Source: Leucobacter aridicollis (GTDB lineage: Bacteria > Actinomycetota > Actinomycetes > Actinomycetales > Microbacteriaceae). Taken from it: DNA of 64,000 nt. Shown here piece after piece: positions 10,898-16,019 of the stretch. The notes below the pieces were generated by a model. The model worked only from the letters and a program-made list of their open reading frames with translations, was not told the DNA's origin and made no database searches. Location of the stretch: positions 1,736,001-1,800,000 of the forward strand of contig NZ_JACCBD010000001.1 in NCBI RefSeq assembly GCF_013409595.1, in the 5' to 3' direction. How positions within the stretch are numbered: the stretch's first letter is position 1; each line of letters opens with the position of its first letter. The position numbers and the translations under genes were made by a program.

Positions 10898-12220
10898 ATG
10901 GATGAATTGCGCGTAGTACGGCGCGAGGACGGCTCACTGATCCTCGCGAACGAGCTCGGCGAGGAGTACCGCCTTGCCATCGATGAGGCGCTGGTCCAGG
11001 AGGCGCGGCTCGCGCTCCCGCGCGCCACAAGCTCAGTCCCCGTGCGGCCCCGCGAGATCCAGGCGCTGCTTCGCGCCGGAAAAACACGCGCGGAGGTTGC
11101 GGCCGAGACCGGTCTCGAAGAGGGCGACGTCGAGCGGTTTGAAGAGCCCGTACGCGCCGAGAAGCGCTACATGCTCGACCTCGCGCACGCCGTCGTCGTG
11201 CGAACGGATCCCGCGCAGAGCGGCGGTTCGCCATCCGCGAACGCTGACGACGATCAGCGTTTCGGCCAGGTCATCGCCGAGCGGCTTATCGCCCTCGGCA
11301 ACACCACGAGCGAGTGGCGGTCGTGGCGCGACGAGGAGACGGGCTGGCTGATCGGGCTCACGTTTGATTCGCGCGACGACATGCACGACGCGATCTGGAG
11401 CTTCGACCACAAGAAGCGGGTGCTGAGCCCGCTCACCCTTGATGCGACCAACCTGTCGAAGCTCGGCGAGATCGGCGACAGACTGATCCCGAAGCTGCGC
11501 GCCGTGGACAACGCCCAGCAGGAGCGCCAGGAGCAGGCCCCATTCGACCCCGACGGCCTGCTCGCGCCAACCGAGGAGGTTGAGCCGCTCCCCCGCGATG
11601 CCGCACCGCCGGCCGACGTGGCGAACGCTGAGCCCGAGAACGCCGACGCCGAGTACGAGCGGCGGCGTGAGATCGATCACCTCGCGATCAAGACGACGGG
11701 CGAGGAAGCGCAGGATCTCAGCCAGACCGCCGACCTGCTCGACGCGCTCAGGCGTCGCCGGGGCGAGCGCTCCAAGGAGGCCGAGGCCACCACGACCGCA
11801 GCCGAATCCGACGATCCGGATCTCCCGTCAGGCAGCGCCGCCATCGATGCCCTTGGGCTCACCCCCGCGGCTCCCGAGCAGCGCCGCGGCGCGGGCGCCA
11901 ATATCTGGGGCACCGCTGGCGTGTCTGGCGAGGCGGCCACTCCCACTGATCGCGACGCGGATACCGCGCAGCTCCGCGCGGTTCCGCGAGCCACCGTGGA
12001 CACCGCTCCGAGCGCGGAGCCGACACGGGCAGGCGAGCCCGCGGCCGAGCGAAACGAACCGGCGCCGGCGGACGTGACGCACGGTCGAGGCGAAGCGAAG
12101 CCGGAGAAGGATGTGAAGTCAGAGAAGCGGGACGCGCGCGCGGCGAAGCGCGGCCGCTCGTCGATCCCGAGCTGGGACGACATCCTGTTCGGCACCCGCA
12201 GCGACGACGACCCTGCATAG
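10898..12220 (+). CDS. sepH: Septation protein SepH (DUF3071)
   Basis: A 440-aa homologue of SepH, the actinobacterial cell division protein that binds FtsZ and promotes its assembly. The N-terminal DUF3071 domain (about residues 1-170) contains the helix-turn-helix-like core (RPREIQALLRAGKTRAEVA) and the WRSWRDEETGWLIGLTF segment. A long, charged, low-complexity middle follows. The C-terminal tail RSSIPSWDDILFGTR is the second conserved patch. ATG at 10898 follows AAGGGA; frames extending to 10709 lack family similarity. The dut/DUF3093/DUF4193/sepH order is conserved in Actinobacteria. Confidence 0.93.
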   Translation: MDELRVVRREDGSLILANELGEEYRLAIDEALVQEARLALPRATSSVPVRPREIQALLRAGKTRAEVAAETGLEEGDVERFEEPVRAEKRYMLDLAHAVVVRTDPAQSGGSPSANADDDQRFGQVIAERLIALGNTTSEWRSWRDEETGWLIGLTFDSRDDMHDAIWSFDHKKRVLSPLTLDATNLSKLGEIGDRLIPKLRAVDNAQQERQEQAPFDPDGLLAPTEEVEPLPRDAAPPADVANAEPENADAEYERRREIDHLAIKTTGEEAQDLSQTADLLDALRRRRGERSKEAEATTTAAESDDPDLPSGSAAIDALGLTPAAPEQRRGAGANIWGTAGVSGEAATPTDRDADTAQLRAVPRATVDTAPSAEPTRAGEPAAERNEPAPADVTHGRGEAKPEKDVKSEKRDARAAKRGRSSIPSWDDILFGTRSDDDPA

Positions 12221-12296: not shown

Positions 12297-13538
12297 CTAG
12301 CGCTGCGCAGCACCGAGGATCTCGACGGCCTTGGCGAACCCCGACTGCGCGAGCGCGCCAGCGGAGATCAGCGGGATCCCGCGCTCCTCGTCGGTCCACG
12401 AGCCGTGCTGTCCGACCATGTCGAGGGACTGCGGATCGTCGGCTGTCGTGTAGTAGGCGCACTGCCCGCGCGCCGCGAGAATGACGTCACCAACTCGCTC
12501 GGCCACGCCGGGCGCGACCGCGCTGCCGAACAAGCCAGCGGCGAACGCCTCGTCGCGCGTCGTGACCCACGCCCGCTTCCCCTCGCGGGCAGCGAGCCAG
12601 GCCGCGAACGCGTCGGCGTCGCCGGCGGGATCGATGAAGAACGTCCGGAACCGAGGCTCACCCCCGACCTCGATCACGTCGGCGAACGCGGGATCACTGA
12701 GATCGAACACGACCTGCTGGTGCGACTCGACGTCAACCATTCCGTGATCTGCGGTGACGACGACCCCCGTCTGCGCGGGGAGCCCGGTCAGGAAGTCGCC
12801 GACCGCGCGGTCCAGCTGCTCAAGCCGGTCCGACCACTGTCGGCTCTGCCAGCCGAACTGATGCCCAGCGCGATCGAGCTCGTCGACGTAGACGTACGCA
12901 AGCGTGGGCGCGCCCCCTGCGAGATCGCCTGTCGCGGCCGCGAGCCGCTCGGCGATGGTGTCGCCGCCAACATACTCGGCGCCGGTCAGGATCGCGCGGG
13001 TGAGGCCACTACCAGAGTGGGCGGGGCGCCCATAGACGCGCGCACGTAGGCCGAGCCGCGAGGCGGCCTCGAACAGCGGTTCAGCGTGCTGCCAGCTGCG
13101 AACGTCAGCGATTCCCTCCCAGTCGCGCAGGGGCGATAGGAGGCCAAGCTCTGGGTGCATGATCCGGTAGCCGACGAGCCCGTGCTCCGCGGGAAGCCGC
13201 CCGGTGGTGAGCGTCGTCAGCGCCGCTCCCGTTGTCGACGGCGTGACCGTCGTGATTCGCCGATGGGACAGCCCGGCGAGCGTCGGGGCGTGCCCTTTGC
13301 GTGCCTTGAGGTTGGCGCTTCCCAGGCCGTCGACCGCGAGCACGACCAGCGAGCGCAGCGGAGGCACGAGGGCGAGTGCCCGGGCCTCGCGGTCGGCCGC
13401 CTCGGCTGACGCCGGCCCACCGAGCGCACTTCGCAGCACCTCGCCGGCCGGCAGATCGTTTCCGAGGGCGAGCGCGGCGAGACCAGTCGGCACAATCGCG
13501 GCAAGCCTCCCGCCGTTGTCGGTGGCAGTCGGTAGCAT
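12297..13538 (-). CDS. Alkaline phosphatase / nucleotide pyrophosphatase family protein
   Basis: A 413-aa metal-dependent hydrolase of the type I phosphodiesterase/nucleotide pyrophosphatase (alkaline phosphatase superfamily) type. The metal-binding Asp is in LVVLAVDGLG, the nucleophile region is TPSTTGAALTTLTTG, and later metal ligands appear in YVDELDRAGHQFGW, VTADHGMVDV and VGQHGSWTDEE. No signal peptide or membrane anchor is evident, so it is probably cytoplasmic. The physiological substrate is unknown. The start is set at ATG 13538: upstream in-frame sequence lies inside parC, and a CATAAT box sits exactly six bases upstream. Divergent from parC with nine bases between start codons. Confidence 0.85.
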   Translation of the reverse strand: MLPTATDNGGRLAAIVPTGLAALALGNDLPAGEVLRSALGGPASAEAADREARALALVPPLRSLVVLAVDGLGSANLKARKGHAPTLAGLSHRRITTVTPSTTGAALTTLTTGRLPAEHGLVGYRIMHPELGLLSPLRDWEGIADVRSWQHAEPLFEAASRLGLRARVYGRPAHSGSGLTRAILTGAEYVGGDTIAERLAAATGDLAGGAPTLAYVYVDELDRAGHQFGWQSRQWSDRLEQLDRAVGDFLTGLPAQTGVVVTADHGMVDVESHQQVVFDLSDPAFADVIEVGGEPRFRTFFIDPAGDADAFAAWLAAREGKRAWVTTRDEAFAAGLFGSAVAPGVAERVGDVILAARGQCAYYTTADDPQSLDMVGQHGSWTDEERGIPLISAGALAQSGFAKAVEILGAAQR

Positions 13539-13550
13539 ATTCCCATTATG
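13536..13550. promoter_or_regulatory. Interlocked divergent -10 boxes and start codons (phosphatase / parC)
   Basis: The 15-base element CATATTCCCATTATG carries both start codons. Rightwards, CATATT (13536-13541) + six bases + ATG (13548). Leftwards, CATAAT (13550-13545) + six bases + ATG (13538). Each start codon is therefore part of the other gene's predicted -10 hexamer, and neither gene shows a Shine-Dalgarno sequence. Confidence 0.5.
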
Positions 13551-16019
13551 GCCGACGTAACCGACATGGATACTCCAGGCGCAGCCCATGAGGCCGCCGG
13601 TGAGCGCATCGAAGATATCGACATCTCTCACGAGATGGAGGGATCGTTCCTTGAGTATGCCTATTCCGTCATCTACTCCCGCGCACTCCCTGACGCGCGC
13701 GACGGACTGAAGCCCGTCCAGCGGCGCATCCTCTACATGATGACCGACATGGGCCTGCGCCCCGACAAGGGTCACGTGAAGTCTGCGCGCGTCGTTGGCG
13801 AGGTGATGGGCAAGCTTCACCCGCACGGCGACTCGTCGATCTACGACGCGCTGGTGCGCCTGTCACAGGACTTTGCGATGCGCCTGCCGCTCGTCGATGG
13901 CCATGGCAACTTCGGCTCGCTCGACGACGGCCCGGCCGCGTCCCGATACACGGAGGCTCGGCTCGCTGGCGCCGCCCTCGCGATGACCGAGGCGCTCGAC
14001 GAAGACGTCGTCGACTTCATCCCCAACTACGACAACCAGTTGCTCCAGCCCGAGGTGCTGCCCTCCGCGGTGCCCAACCTGCTCGTCAACGGCGCGAGCG
14101 GCATCGCGGTCGGCATGGCGACGAACCTCGCGCCGCACAACCTCATCGAGACGATCGAGGGCGCGAAGCACCTGCTCTACCACCCCGACGCATCGGTCGA
14201 AGAGCTCATGGAGTTCATCCCCGGCCCCGACCTCCCCGGTGGCGGCACGATCGTGGGCCTCGACGGGGTGACTGATGCCTACCGCACGGGCCGCGGCGCG
14301 TTCCGCACCCGCGCGAAGGTGTCGATCGAGCAGATCGGCCCGCGCCGTACGGGCCTCGTCGTCACCGAGCTGCCCTACCTCGTCGGCCCGGAGCGAGTGA
14401 TCGAAAAGATCAAGCAGGGCGTCGAGAACAAGAAGATCACGGGCATCACCGATGTTGTCGATCTGTCAGACCGGAAAAACGGGCTGAAGCTTGTCATCAC
14501 GCTGAAGACCGGCTTCTCCCCCGAGGCTGTCCTCGAGCTGCTGTACCGGTACACCCCGCTCGAGGACTCGTTCAGCATCAACTCTGTCGCGCTCGTCGAC
14601 GGCCAGCCCCAGACGCTGAGCCTGCGCGAAATGCTTCGCGTGTTCCTGGATCATCGTCTCGCCGTCGTGACGCGCCGCAGCGAGTACCGCCTCCGGAAGC
14701 GCCGCGAGCGCCTGCACCTTGTCGAGGGCCTACTCATCGCGATCCTCGACATCGATGAGGTCATCCAGGTCATTCGCACGAGCGATGACGCCGAGGAGGC
14801 CAGGACCCGGCTGCAGCAGGTGTTCGACCTGTCGGAACTGCAAGCGGAGTACATCCTTGAGCTGCGCCTGCGCAGGCTCACGAAGTTCTCGCGCGTCGAA
14901 CTCGAGGCGGAGCGCGATCAGCTCAACGCAGAGATCGCTGCGCTGCTCGAGATCCTCGGCAGCAAGGAGCGTCTGAAGGCCGTCGTCGCGAGCGAGCTCG
15001 ACCAGGCTTCGGCAGCCTACGGCACGCCCCGCAGGACCCTGCTCACTGGGGCGGTCGCGCGGCCATCGCGCGCAGCGGTCTCCCCCGATGCCATGCAGGT
15101 CGCGGACACGCCGTGCACCGTGCTGCTTTCGGCGACCGGTCGCGCCCTGCGCGTCGACCGCGATCCCGACGCCCCCGACGCCACGCGAGCGGCGCCGCGC
15201 GCGACGAAGCACGGTGCTGTCGCTGCGCGAGTCGCGACGACAGTCCGCGGTGAGCTCGGCGCGATCCTGTCCGATGGCACGCTTCACCGCTTCACCCCCG
15301 TCGATCTCCCGCTCGTTCCCGGCGCGTCGATCGCGTTCTCCGCGGGAGTCAAGCTCACCGAGTACATCGGGCTCACGGACAAGAAGCAGCGGATCGTCGG
15401 CATCGTGCCGCTCGATTCGGAGGAGCCGGTCGGCGTCTTCACGGCCCAGGGCACCGTCAAGCGCGTCGTGCTGACAGATCTGCCCGCGCGCCCCGAGTTC
15501 GAGGTCATCACCCTCAAGCCTGGCGACGCGGTCGTCGCGGCGTTCCCGGCGCCCGACTCCGCCGAGTTCGCGGCCGTCACGAGCGACGCGCAGCTGCTGC
15601 GGTTTGCCGCGTCAGCGGTGCGCCCGCAGGGCCGGCCGGCCGGTGGCATGGCCGGCATGAAGCTCGGCTCCGATGCGCGCGTCATCTTCGCCTCGGCGAT
15701 CGAGGCCGACGCTGAGGCGCGCGTCGCCACGGTGGCGGAGGGATCCGACGAGAACGCCCTGCTGAGCACCGATGCCGCATCCGCGAAGATCTCGGACTGG
15801 GCTGAATTCCCAGCTAAGGGGCGCGCGACCGGCGGCGTGCGCGCGCAGCGCTTCCTCAAGGGTGAGGATCGGCTCGTCGCCGCGTGGGTCGGCACGGGCG
15901 AACCGCGCGCGATCGCGGCCGACGGGAGTGCACGCAAGCTGCCGGAGGAGCTCGGCAAGCGCGACGGCTCCGGAAGTCCGCTCGAACACAGCGTTGCCTT
16001 CATCGGTGAGGCGCCGTAG
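13548..16019 (+). CDS. parC: DNA topoisomerase IV subunit A
   Basis: An 823-aa type IIA topoisomerase A subunit that cuts and rejoins DNA to decatenate daughter chromosomes, working with ParE encoded at 18.0-20.1 kb. The winged-helix/tower region begins at about residue 28; the catalytic Tyr is Y134 in [10 protein letters not shown]. The quinolone-pocket residues look wild type (S96 and D100 in [10 protein letters not shown]). The C-terminal beta-pinwheel (from about residue 500) has several ARVATT/VTS-type blades. ParC rather than GyrA is inferred from the C-terminal domain and the nearby parE. ATG at 13548 has no ribosome binding site. Confidence 0.92.

Follow-up and report, generated by a model that had tools for sequence, protein, structure and literature searches.

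The junction analysed here lies in a 64,000-nucleotide window of the Leucobacter aridicollis genome, where two genes diverge from ATG codons at 13538 (minus strand) and 13548 (plus strand) with 9 bases between them. The leftward gene encodes a member of the type I phosphodiesterase / nucleotide pyrophosphatase family, referred to below as the phosphatase; its top solved-structure match is a phosphodiesterase-nucleotide pyrophosphatase (E 6.1e-17). The product of the rightward gene is a topoisomerase subunit A; among NCBIfam models 'DNA topoisomerase (ATP-hydrolyzing)' matches it best, and the GyrA and ParC equivalog models both score under their cut-offs. A second subunit A copy elsewhere in the genome, 55% identical, is presumably gyrA; ParC is therefore the likely name of the gene at 13548, which is probably parC. 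The features of the region are collected in Table 1. Beyond the phosphatase gene and convergent with it, on the same strand as parC, lies a gene for the septation protein SepH (10898-12220, NF040712).

Table 1. Genes, candidate promoter elements and predicted transcription starts at the junction (window positions).
Feature	Position	Strand	Basis
Type I phosphodiesterase / nucleotide pyrophosphatase family gene ("phosphatase"), 413 aa	12297..13538	minus	PF01663, E 1.5e-40
Probable parC, topoisomerase IV subunit A, 823 aa	13548..16019	plus	PF00521, E 9.9e-150; NF004044, 819 bits, over cut-off
Candidate parC -10 element TAGCAT (revised register)	13533..13538	plus	TA[G/A]CAT in 54/54 Leucobacter; TANNNT in 89/89 family genomes with the gene pair
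CATATT, parC -10 of the preliminary description	13536..13541	plus	Judged not the conserved element: 22/53 Leucobacter junctions
Candidate phosphatase -10 element CATAAT	13545..13550 (read 13550-13545)	minus	Place and 6-7 nt spacing kept in 54/54 Leucobacter
Predicted phosphatase transcription start, first base of ATG (leaderless)	13538	minus	6-nt spacing to CATAAT; 6-7 nt genome peak
Predicted parC transcription start, 3-nt leader (AUU-AUG)	13545	plus	Inferred, seventh base after TAGCAT
Synonymously conserved stretch, possible upstream parC control site	13494..13520 (codons 7-15); 13485-13520 (codons 7-18)	plus	Leucobacter codon alignment

A preliminary description of this DNA had drawn attention to a 15-base element spanning both start codons, and the element is present as described: CATATTCCCATTATG at 13536-13550, a single occurrence in the 3.57-Mb genome. 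Two opposed -10 hexamers had been read in it, CATATT for parC and CATAAT for the phosphatase, each six bases from its own ATG, and for these two hexamers that spacing is literally correct. The reported lack of a Shine-Dalgarno sequence also agrees with what we saw at either start, a GGGA 2 nt before the phosphatase ATG being too close. No recognisable -35 element was found at the usual distance on either side of the junction.

TANNNT is reported as the -10 box of leaderless genes in high-GC Actinobacteria (PMC3160421). We measured its use here in a 464-kb genome sample (the window plus 20 stretches; 352 crude gene calls with starts only roughly placed) by comparing 852 in-frame ATG/GTG candidates with 806 out-of-frame controls. 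TANNNT preceded 40 candidates at 6 nt and 18 at 7 nt, against 1 and 2 controls; at 9 nt there was no excess (3/852 vs 7/806). The 6-7 nt signature marks 58 genes, 57 of them without a Shine-Dalgarno-like word at their candidates. Leaderless starts driven by a -10 element are common in this Leucobacter genome, and TANNNT is the -10 box of its leaderless genes. The exact word TAGCAT stood at 6 or 7 nt before 0/852 candidates and 1/806 controls. Across the whole genome the double hexamer showed no enrichment (6 matches vs 13 for the control), with a pattern that does not cover the site of the window itself, which has ATTATG on its right. The sample contained 54 divergent pairs by the crude caller, 4 of them with starts less than 60 bp apart and the closest at 29 bp. 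The parC/phosphatase pair itself escaped the caller, which scored a spurious plus-strand ORF (12405-13049) above the phosphatase. In another divergent pair of this genome (L223:5490-5539) each side has a leaderless-type box; these are 48 bp apart and do not interlock.

Comparison within the genus changed the register of the parC element. All 54 Leucobacter genomes searched gave a parC match; a plain pattern search recovered the junction in 36 of them, and reading every junction gave 54/54. The constant hexamer on the parC strand is TAGCAT (53/54) or TAACAT (1/54). In the window it overlaps the phosphatase frame on the opposite strand, where the ATG is complementary to its last three bases and codon 2 (CTA) to its first three. 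To its right, on the plus strand, come 6 or 7 variable bases and then either ATTATG (38 genomes) or ATCGTA (16 genomes). Where the window has CATATT, relatives show CATGAA, CATGAT, CATGAG, CATAAA and others, and the A at position 2 and T at position 6 of that hexamer (CANNNT) occur together in just 22 of the 53 junctions scored, for which reason we dropped CATATT as the parC -10. That CATATT (13536-13541) nevertheless drives a strictly leaderless parC from six bases before its ATG is very unlikely. The spacing would be correct for a leaderless start, and CATNNT is enriched before start candidates of the genome sample (9/852 vs 1/806 controls); against this, its 22/53 compares with 54/54 for TA[G/A]CAT, and it leaves unexplained the 12-nt distance between TANCAT and the parC ATG that 27 of the 30 short-gap genomes of the wider family share (below). 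The junction as first described was therefore only partly conserved: TA[G/A]CAT and the phosphatase -10 are kept in 54/54 Leucobacter genomes, CATATT is not.

On the phosphatase side, the first three bases of CATAAT are the complement of the parC ATG. A hexamer in the same place, 6-7 nt before the phosphatase ATG, was present in 54/54 Leucobacter genomes (53 junctions scored, one, G075, read separately), as CATAAT in 38 and TACGAT in 16. Judged by place and spacing, this conservation exceeds chance. In 37 of the 38 genomes with ATTATG, the parC frame begins at the ATG of that word. In the remaining one (G008, L019) the frame is broken: through a frameshift or an assembly error, the conserved ATG is not in the frame that the remainder of parC uses. 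In the 16 ATCGTA genomes parC starts some tens of bases downstream, several times with a Shine-Dalgarno-like GAAAGG (by eye), and TANCAT is kept in these as well. The junction also lies within a partial inverted repeat, GTCGG...CCGAC (13528-13556), with a z of -2.75 for folding as single-stranded DNA; GTCGG...CCGA recurs in 27/38 short-gap Leucobacter genomes and was not seen by eye in the other clade.

The reverse complement of a start codon is CAT, half of a -10-like word, and one might suspect that the AT-rich bases separating two neighbouring ATGs are nearly symmetrical by accident. Barring an artefact common to the comparisons, we consider this exceedingly improbable: both hexamers are conserved despite the variable 6-7 nt between them, and TANNNT stands at 6 or 7 nt before out-of-frame starts in just 3/806 cases.

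The overlap of the parC hexamer with the phosphatase reading frame coincides with a strong codon bias. Of the 54 Leucobacter genomes, 53 have CTA and 1 has TTA as phosphatase codon 2, which encodes leucine in all of them; together these two codons supply 31 of the 2417 remaining leucine codons in the same genes. The entropy of codon 2 is 0.13; for 114 conserved four- or sixfold degenerate columns past codon 30 the mean is 1.52 and the lowest value 0.52. As a second codon, NTA is found in 0/352 crude gene calls of the genome sample. TANNNT on the parC strand overlaps phosphatase codons 1-2, and the parC -10 would therefore fix codon 2 as NTA, that is CTA, TTA, GTA or ATA.

We followed the junction through the Microbacteriaceae in 90 genomes from 84 genera, all of which were read, 78 by script and 12 by inspection (G113, G140, G137, G088, G090, the window itself and the six genomes without an ATG described below). 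One of those inspected (G090) had no phosphatase at the junction. TANNNT is present in 89/89 genomes with the gene pair, 83 of which have TANCAT covering an in-frame phosphatase ATG; given the relatedness of the genomes, neither these counts nor those from Leucobacter are independent events. Codon 2 in the 78 scripted genomes is CTA (58), TTA (10), GTA (8) or ATA (2), and each NTA codon has a background share of 1.5-2.9%. The script chose the phosphatase start by the hexamer, and the homology of the place rests on reading by eye and on an ungapped codon alignment in which codon 12 is leucine in 75/78. An early, looser junction pattern, which matched 38/299 family genomes and in some of them matched as a reversed control too, was too loose and was not used.

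The strongest evidence that this constraint is a promoter on the parC strand comes from six genomes (G118, G106, G095, G156, G089, G145) in which no ATG stands at this place and the phosphatase frame opens further upstream. By eye their hexamers read TACGAT, TACGCT, TACGAT, TAAAGT, TAAAGT and TAGACT, so that the T, the A and the final T on which a -10 depends are retained where there is no start codon to retain, and all six keep an NTA codon at the position of codon 2. Early codons can influence translation initiation, and NTA might instead be kept for translation of a leaderless phosphatase mRNA or for the protein itself, with no relation to parC. Residue 2 is indeed leucine in 54/54 Leucobacter genomes, and the phosphatase looks leaderless. 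The same NTA form is shared by leucine, valine and isoleucine codons, however; it persists in the six genomes where no ATG precedes it, and it is the second codon in 0/58 genes with the leaderless signature. Mycobacterial leaderless genes are described in PMC4633059 as having no enriched sequence past the start codon. We dropped leaderless translation as the cause of the NTA codon on this report, the 0/58 count and the six ATG-less genomes, and give an explanation by translation or protein little probability. Phosphatase homologues without parC in the locus offer a weak control: among 18 such loci (Sinomonas, Kocuria, Rothia, Tersicoccus and one labelled Curtobacterium) the start was unplaceable in 12, and NTA was codon 2 in 0/6 Sinomonas loci with a plausible ATG start. 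In the 12 readable of 13 loci from other families of the order, the junction was not seen by eye.

The parC ATG lies 10-12 nt after TANCAT in 30/78 scripted genomes (exactly 12 in 27) and is further off or replaced by another codon in 48/78, as chosen by a rule that leaves some long-gap starts ambiguous (G146, G142); TANCAT is retained regardless. On a quick tree of 88 rows, in which 42/85 inner branches are weak, the short and long arrangements interchange at least 10 times, with 4 changes forced by the starred, well-supported branches. Two other genera (G121 and G088) have TANCAT-N7-ATTATG, the arrangement of the window's own clade. In light of this, the earlier statement goes too far in holding that a mutation of either promoter must alter the start codon of the other gene: parC has shifted its start away or returned it on at least 10 occasions, and 6/89 genomes lack the phosphatase ATG at this place with the parC -10 present. 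As read from these sequences, the reciprocal interlock is not universal; it is gained and lost while the parC -10 is constant.

The phosphatase -10 is more variable across the family. A candidate stands 6-7 nt from the ATG of TANCAT in 40/78 genomes; of the other 38, 23 have a candidate -10 before an upstream in-frame start (CAGACT in 17) and 15 show neither arrangement by the rule applied. In many long-gap genera the ATG within TANCAT may not be the phosphatase start that is used, an upstream in-frame ATG serving instead. About 15-27 nt to the right of TANCAT, long-gap genera (L135-L222) have a recurrent CAGTCTGGCACA-like word, which on the phosphatase strand reads CAGACT 6-7 nt from the upstream in-frame ATG (17/23), with TGN before it where checked.

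These observations bear on the possibility that only one direction of the promoter is real, the parC -10 working and CATAAT being too weak in this clade, with the phosphatase transcribed from elsewhere. In 38/54 Leucobacter genomes the -10 begins with C where T is expected, and exact CATAAT stands at 6 or 7 nt before 0/852 start candidates; the broader CANNNT is found there in 25/852 and 10/806 controls. Such a one-sided promoter is nonetheless unlikely given a candidate -10 at 6-7 nt from the phosphatase ATG in 54/54 Leucobacter and 40/78 family genomes, and given that the TANNAT forms of relatives fit the consensus. The phosphatase retains the look of a leaderless gene that the preliminary description gave it: CATAAT, with C for T (TACGAT in 16/54 genomes), is placed at the genome's 6-7 nt peak, at 6 nt, and no Shine-Dalgarno sequence is seen.

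For parC the same description does not carry over. The proposed six-base spacing belongs to CATATT; the conserved TAGCAT ends 9 nt before the parC ATG in the window and 9-10 nt before it in the 38 short-gap Leucobacter genomes, outside the 6-7 nt of leaderless genes and at a distance with no TANNNT excess in this genome. A strictly leaderless parC is not upheld by this spacing. parC is probably near-leaderless, with a predicted leader of about 3 nt in this clade; for genera with a 12-nt gap the prediction is about 5-6 nt. PMC4633059 reports that mycobacteria favour a start codon placed precisely at +1 and that starts with a very short leader probably work less well, so by analogy parC may be weakly translated or its start shifted. 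It may also behave like a leaderless gene.

Upstream of parC, inside the phosphatase gene, a further stretch shows synonymous conservation. At codons 7, 8, 10, 11 and 13 there is no synonymous variation among Leucobacter rows with the consensus residue (GAC7, the rare arginine codon AGG11 and GCC13 each 54/54), and ATT15 is used in 50/52 isoleucine rows; codons 9 and 12 do vary. In the family, codon 11 is mostly AGC (47/78), codon 12 CTT (37) and codon 18 AGT (29), each over its usual share. The conservation of codons 7-18 is in part amino-acid conservation. Counted by hand, the parC strand reads roughly ACTTGGCA...TCGGCAAGGCT some 37 to 60 bases upstream of where parC is predicted to start, a putative site at which an activator could bind. 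By eye, GGCA is repeated 11 bp apart within 13485-13520. The upstream block TYGGCANNAYNNCGGCMAGSCT has its sole exact match in the genome at the parC site; allowing up to 3 mismatches gives 97 matches vs 36 for the reversed control, and with a pattern this GC-rich we claim no regulon.

Taken with the parC register moved three bases upstream to TAGCAT, the central idea of the preliminary description, two opposed and interlocked -10 elements that each overlap the other gene's start codon, stands and is strongly supported by the comparisons. We consider it probable that the junction is a compact bidirectional promoter, with each start codon within the other gene's -10 and transcription starts about 7 bp apart. 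Polymerase arriving from the left would use TAGCAT (13533-13538) and start parC near 13545; polymerase arriving from the right would use CATAAT (13550-13545), which in this Leucobacter clade overlaps the parC ATG, and would start the phosphatase at 13538, the A of its ATG. On these predicted sites the overlap is reciprocal, 13538 falling in TAGCAT and 13545 in CATAAT, so that only a single polymerase could be bound at any time. The earlier claim that polymerase could hardly occupy both is well founded to this extent: occupancy would be exclusive by geometry, given the size of polymerase, if both promoters work. Directly observed are the sequence, its conservation, the codon bias and the persistence of TANNNT where the ATG is missing; promoter activity, the exact starts and exclusive occupancy are what we infer from them. 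We accept exclusive binding on the same grounds; that the cell uses the exclusion as a regulated switch is an unproven possibility.

Prokaryotic bidirectional promoters are defined by divergent starts 7-25 bp apart (PMC10268837), the commonest distance being 18 bp, with 10 and 23 bp also common (PMC12825309). The parC/phosphatase junction resembles them in its reciprocal -10/start overlap, which leaves no room for two polymerases. It differs from their commonest form, as described there, in that starts 18 bp apart over a shared -10 are replaced by separate hexamers 6 bp apart with predicted starts 7 bp apart, and in that both hexamers contain start codons, which makes the element coding as well. 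At all five E. coli bidirectional promoters tested in PMC12825309, basal activity was too low for competition, and activating one direction could repress the other. Compared with the actinobacterial leaderless TANNNT genes described in PMC3160421 and PMC4633059, the phosphatase is alike in having its hexamer 6-7 nt before the ATG and no Shine-Dalgarno sequence; it differs in a hexamer that begins with C, and parC differs in its predicted 3-nt leader. The lysG/lysE pair of Mycobacterium tuberculosis (PMC5648196) and the EcoRV CR/M pair (PMC5333194) are likewise opposed genes with overlapping promoter elements. The lysG/lysE intergenic region is 108 bp, against 9 bp between the ATGs here; the passages covered for either pair place no promoters inside start codons. 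Within the titles and excerpts covered by a full-text literature search, no description of start codons within each other's -10 appeared. The reciprocal overlap is an extreme form of known bidirectional promoters and not a new kind of system.

The junction would fuse a bidirectional promoter and leaderless starts within 18 bp, and it offers a natural case of promoter function dictating codon choice at a start codon, traceable over the 84 sampled genera and including six genomes that keep the promoter letters without the ATG. More tentatively, and with rather less confidence than in the promoter itself, we can picture a family-wide lock between coding and promoter function: the parC -10 would have lain in phosphodiesterase codons 1-2 through most of Microbacteriaceae history, freezing the rare NTA codon; the overlap would have become reciprocal in several lineages, including this one; and a site in codons 7-18 would possibly set the direction, with decatenase and phosphodiesterase expression competing for one polymerase. 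If the interlock holds, a synonymous change in one gene would silence its neighbour, and topoisomerase expression would be coupled to that of a phosphodiesterase.
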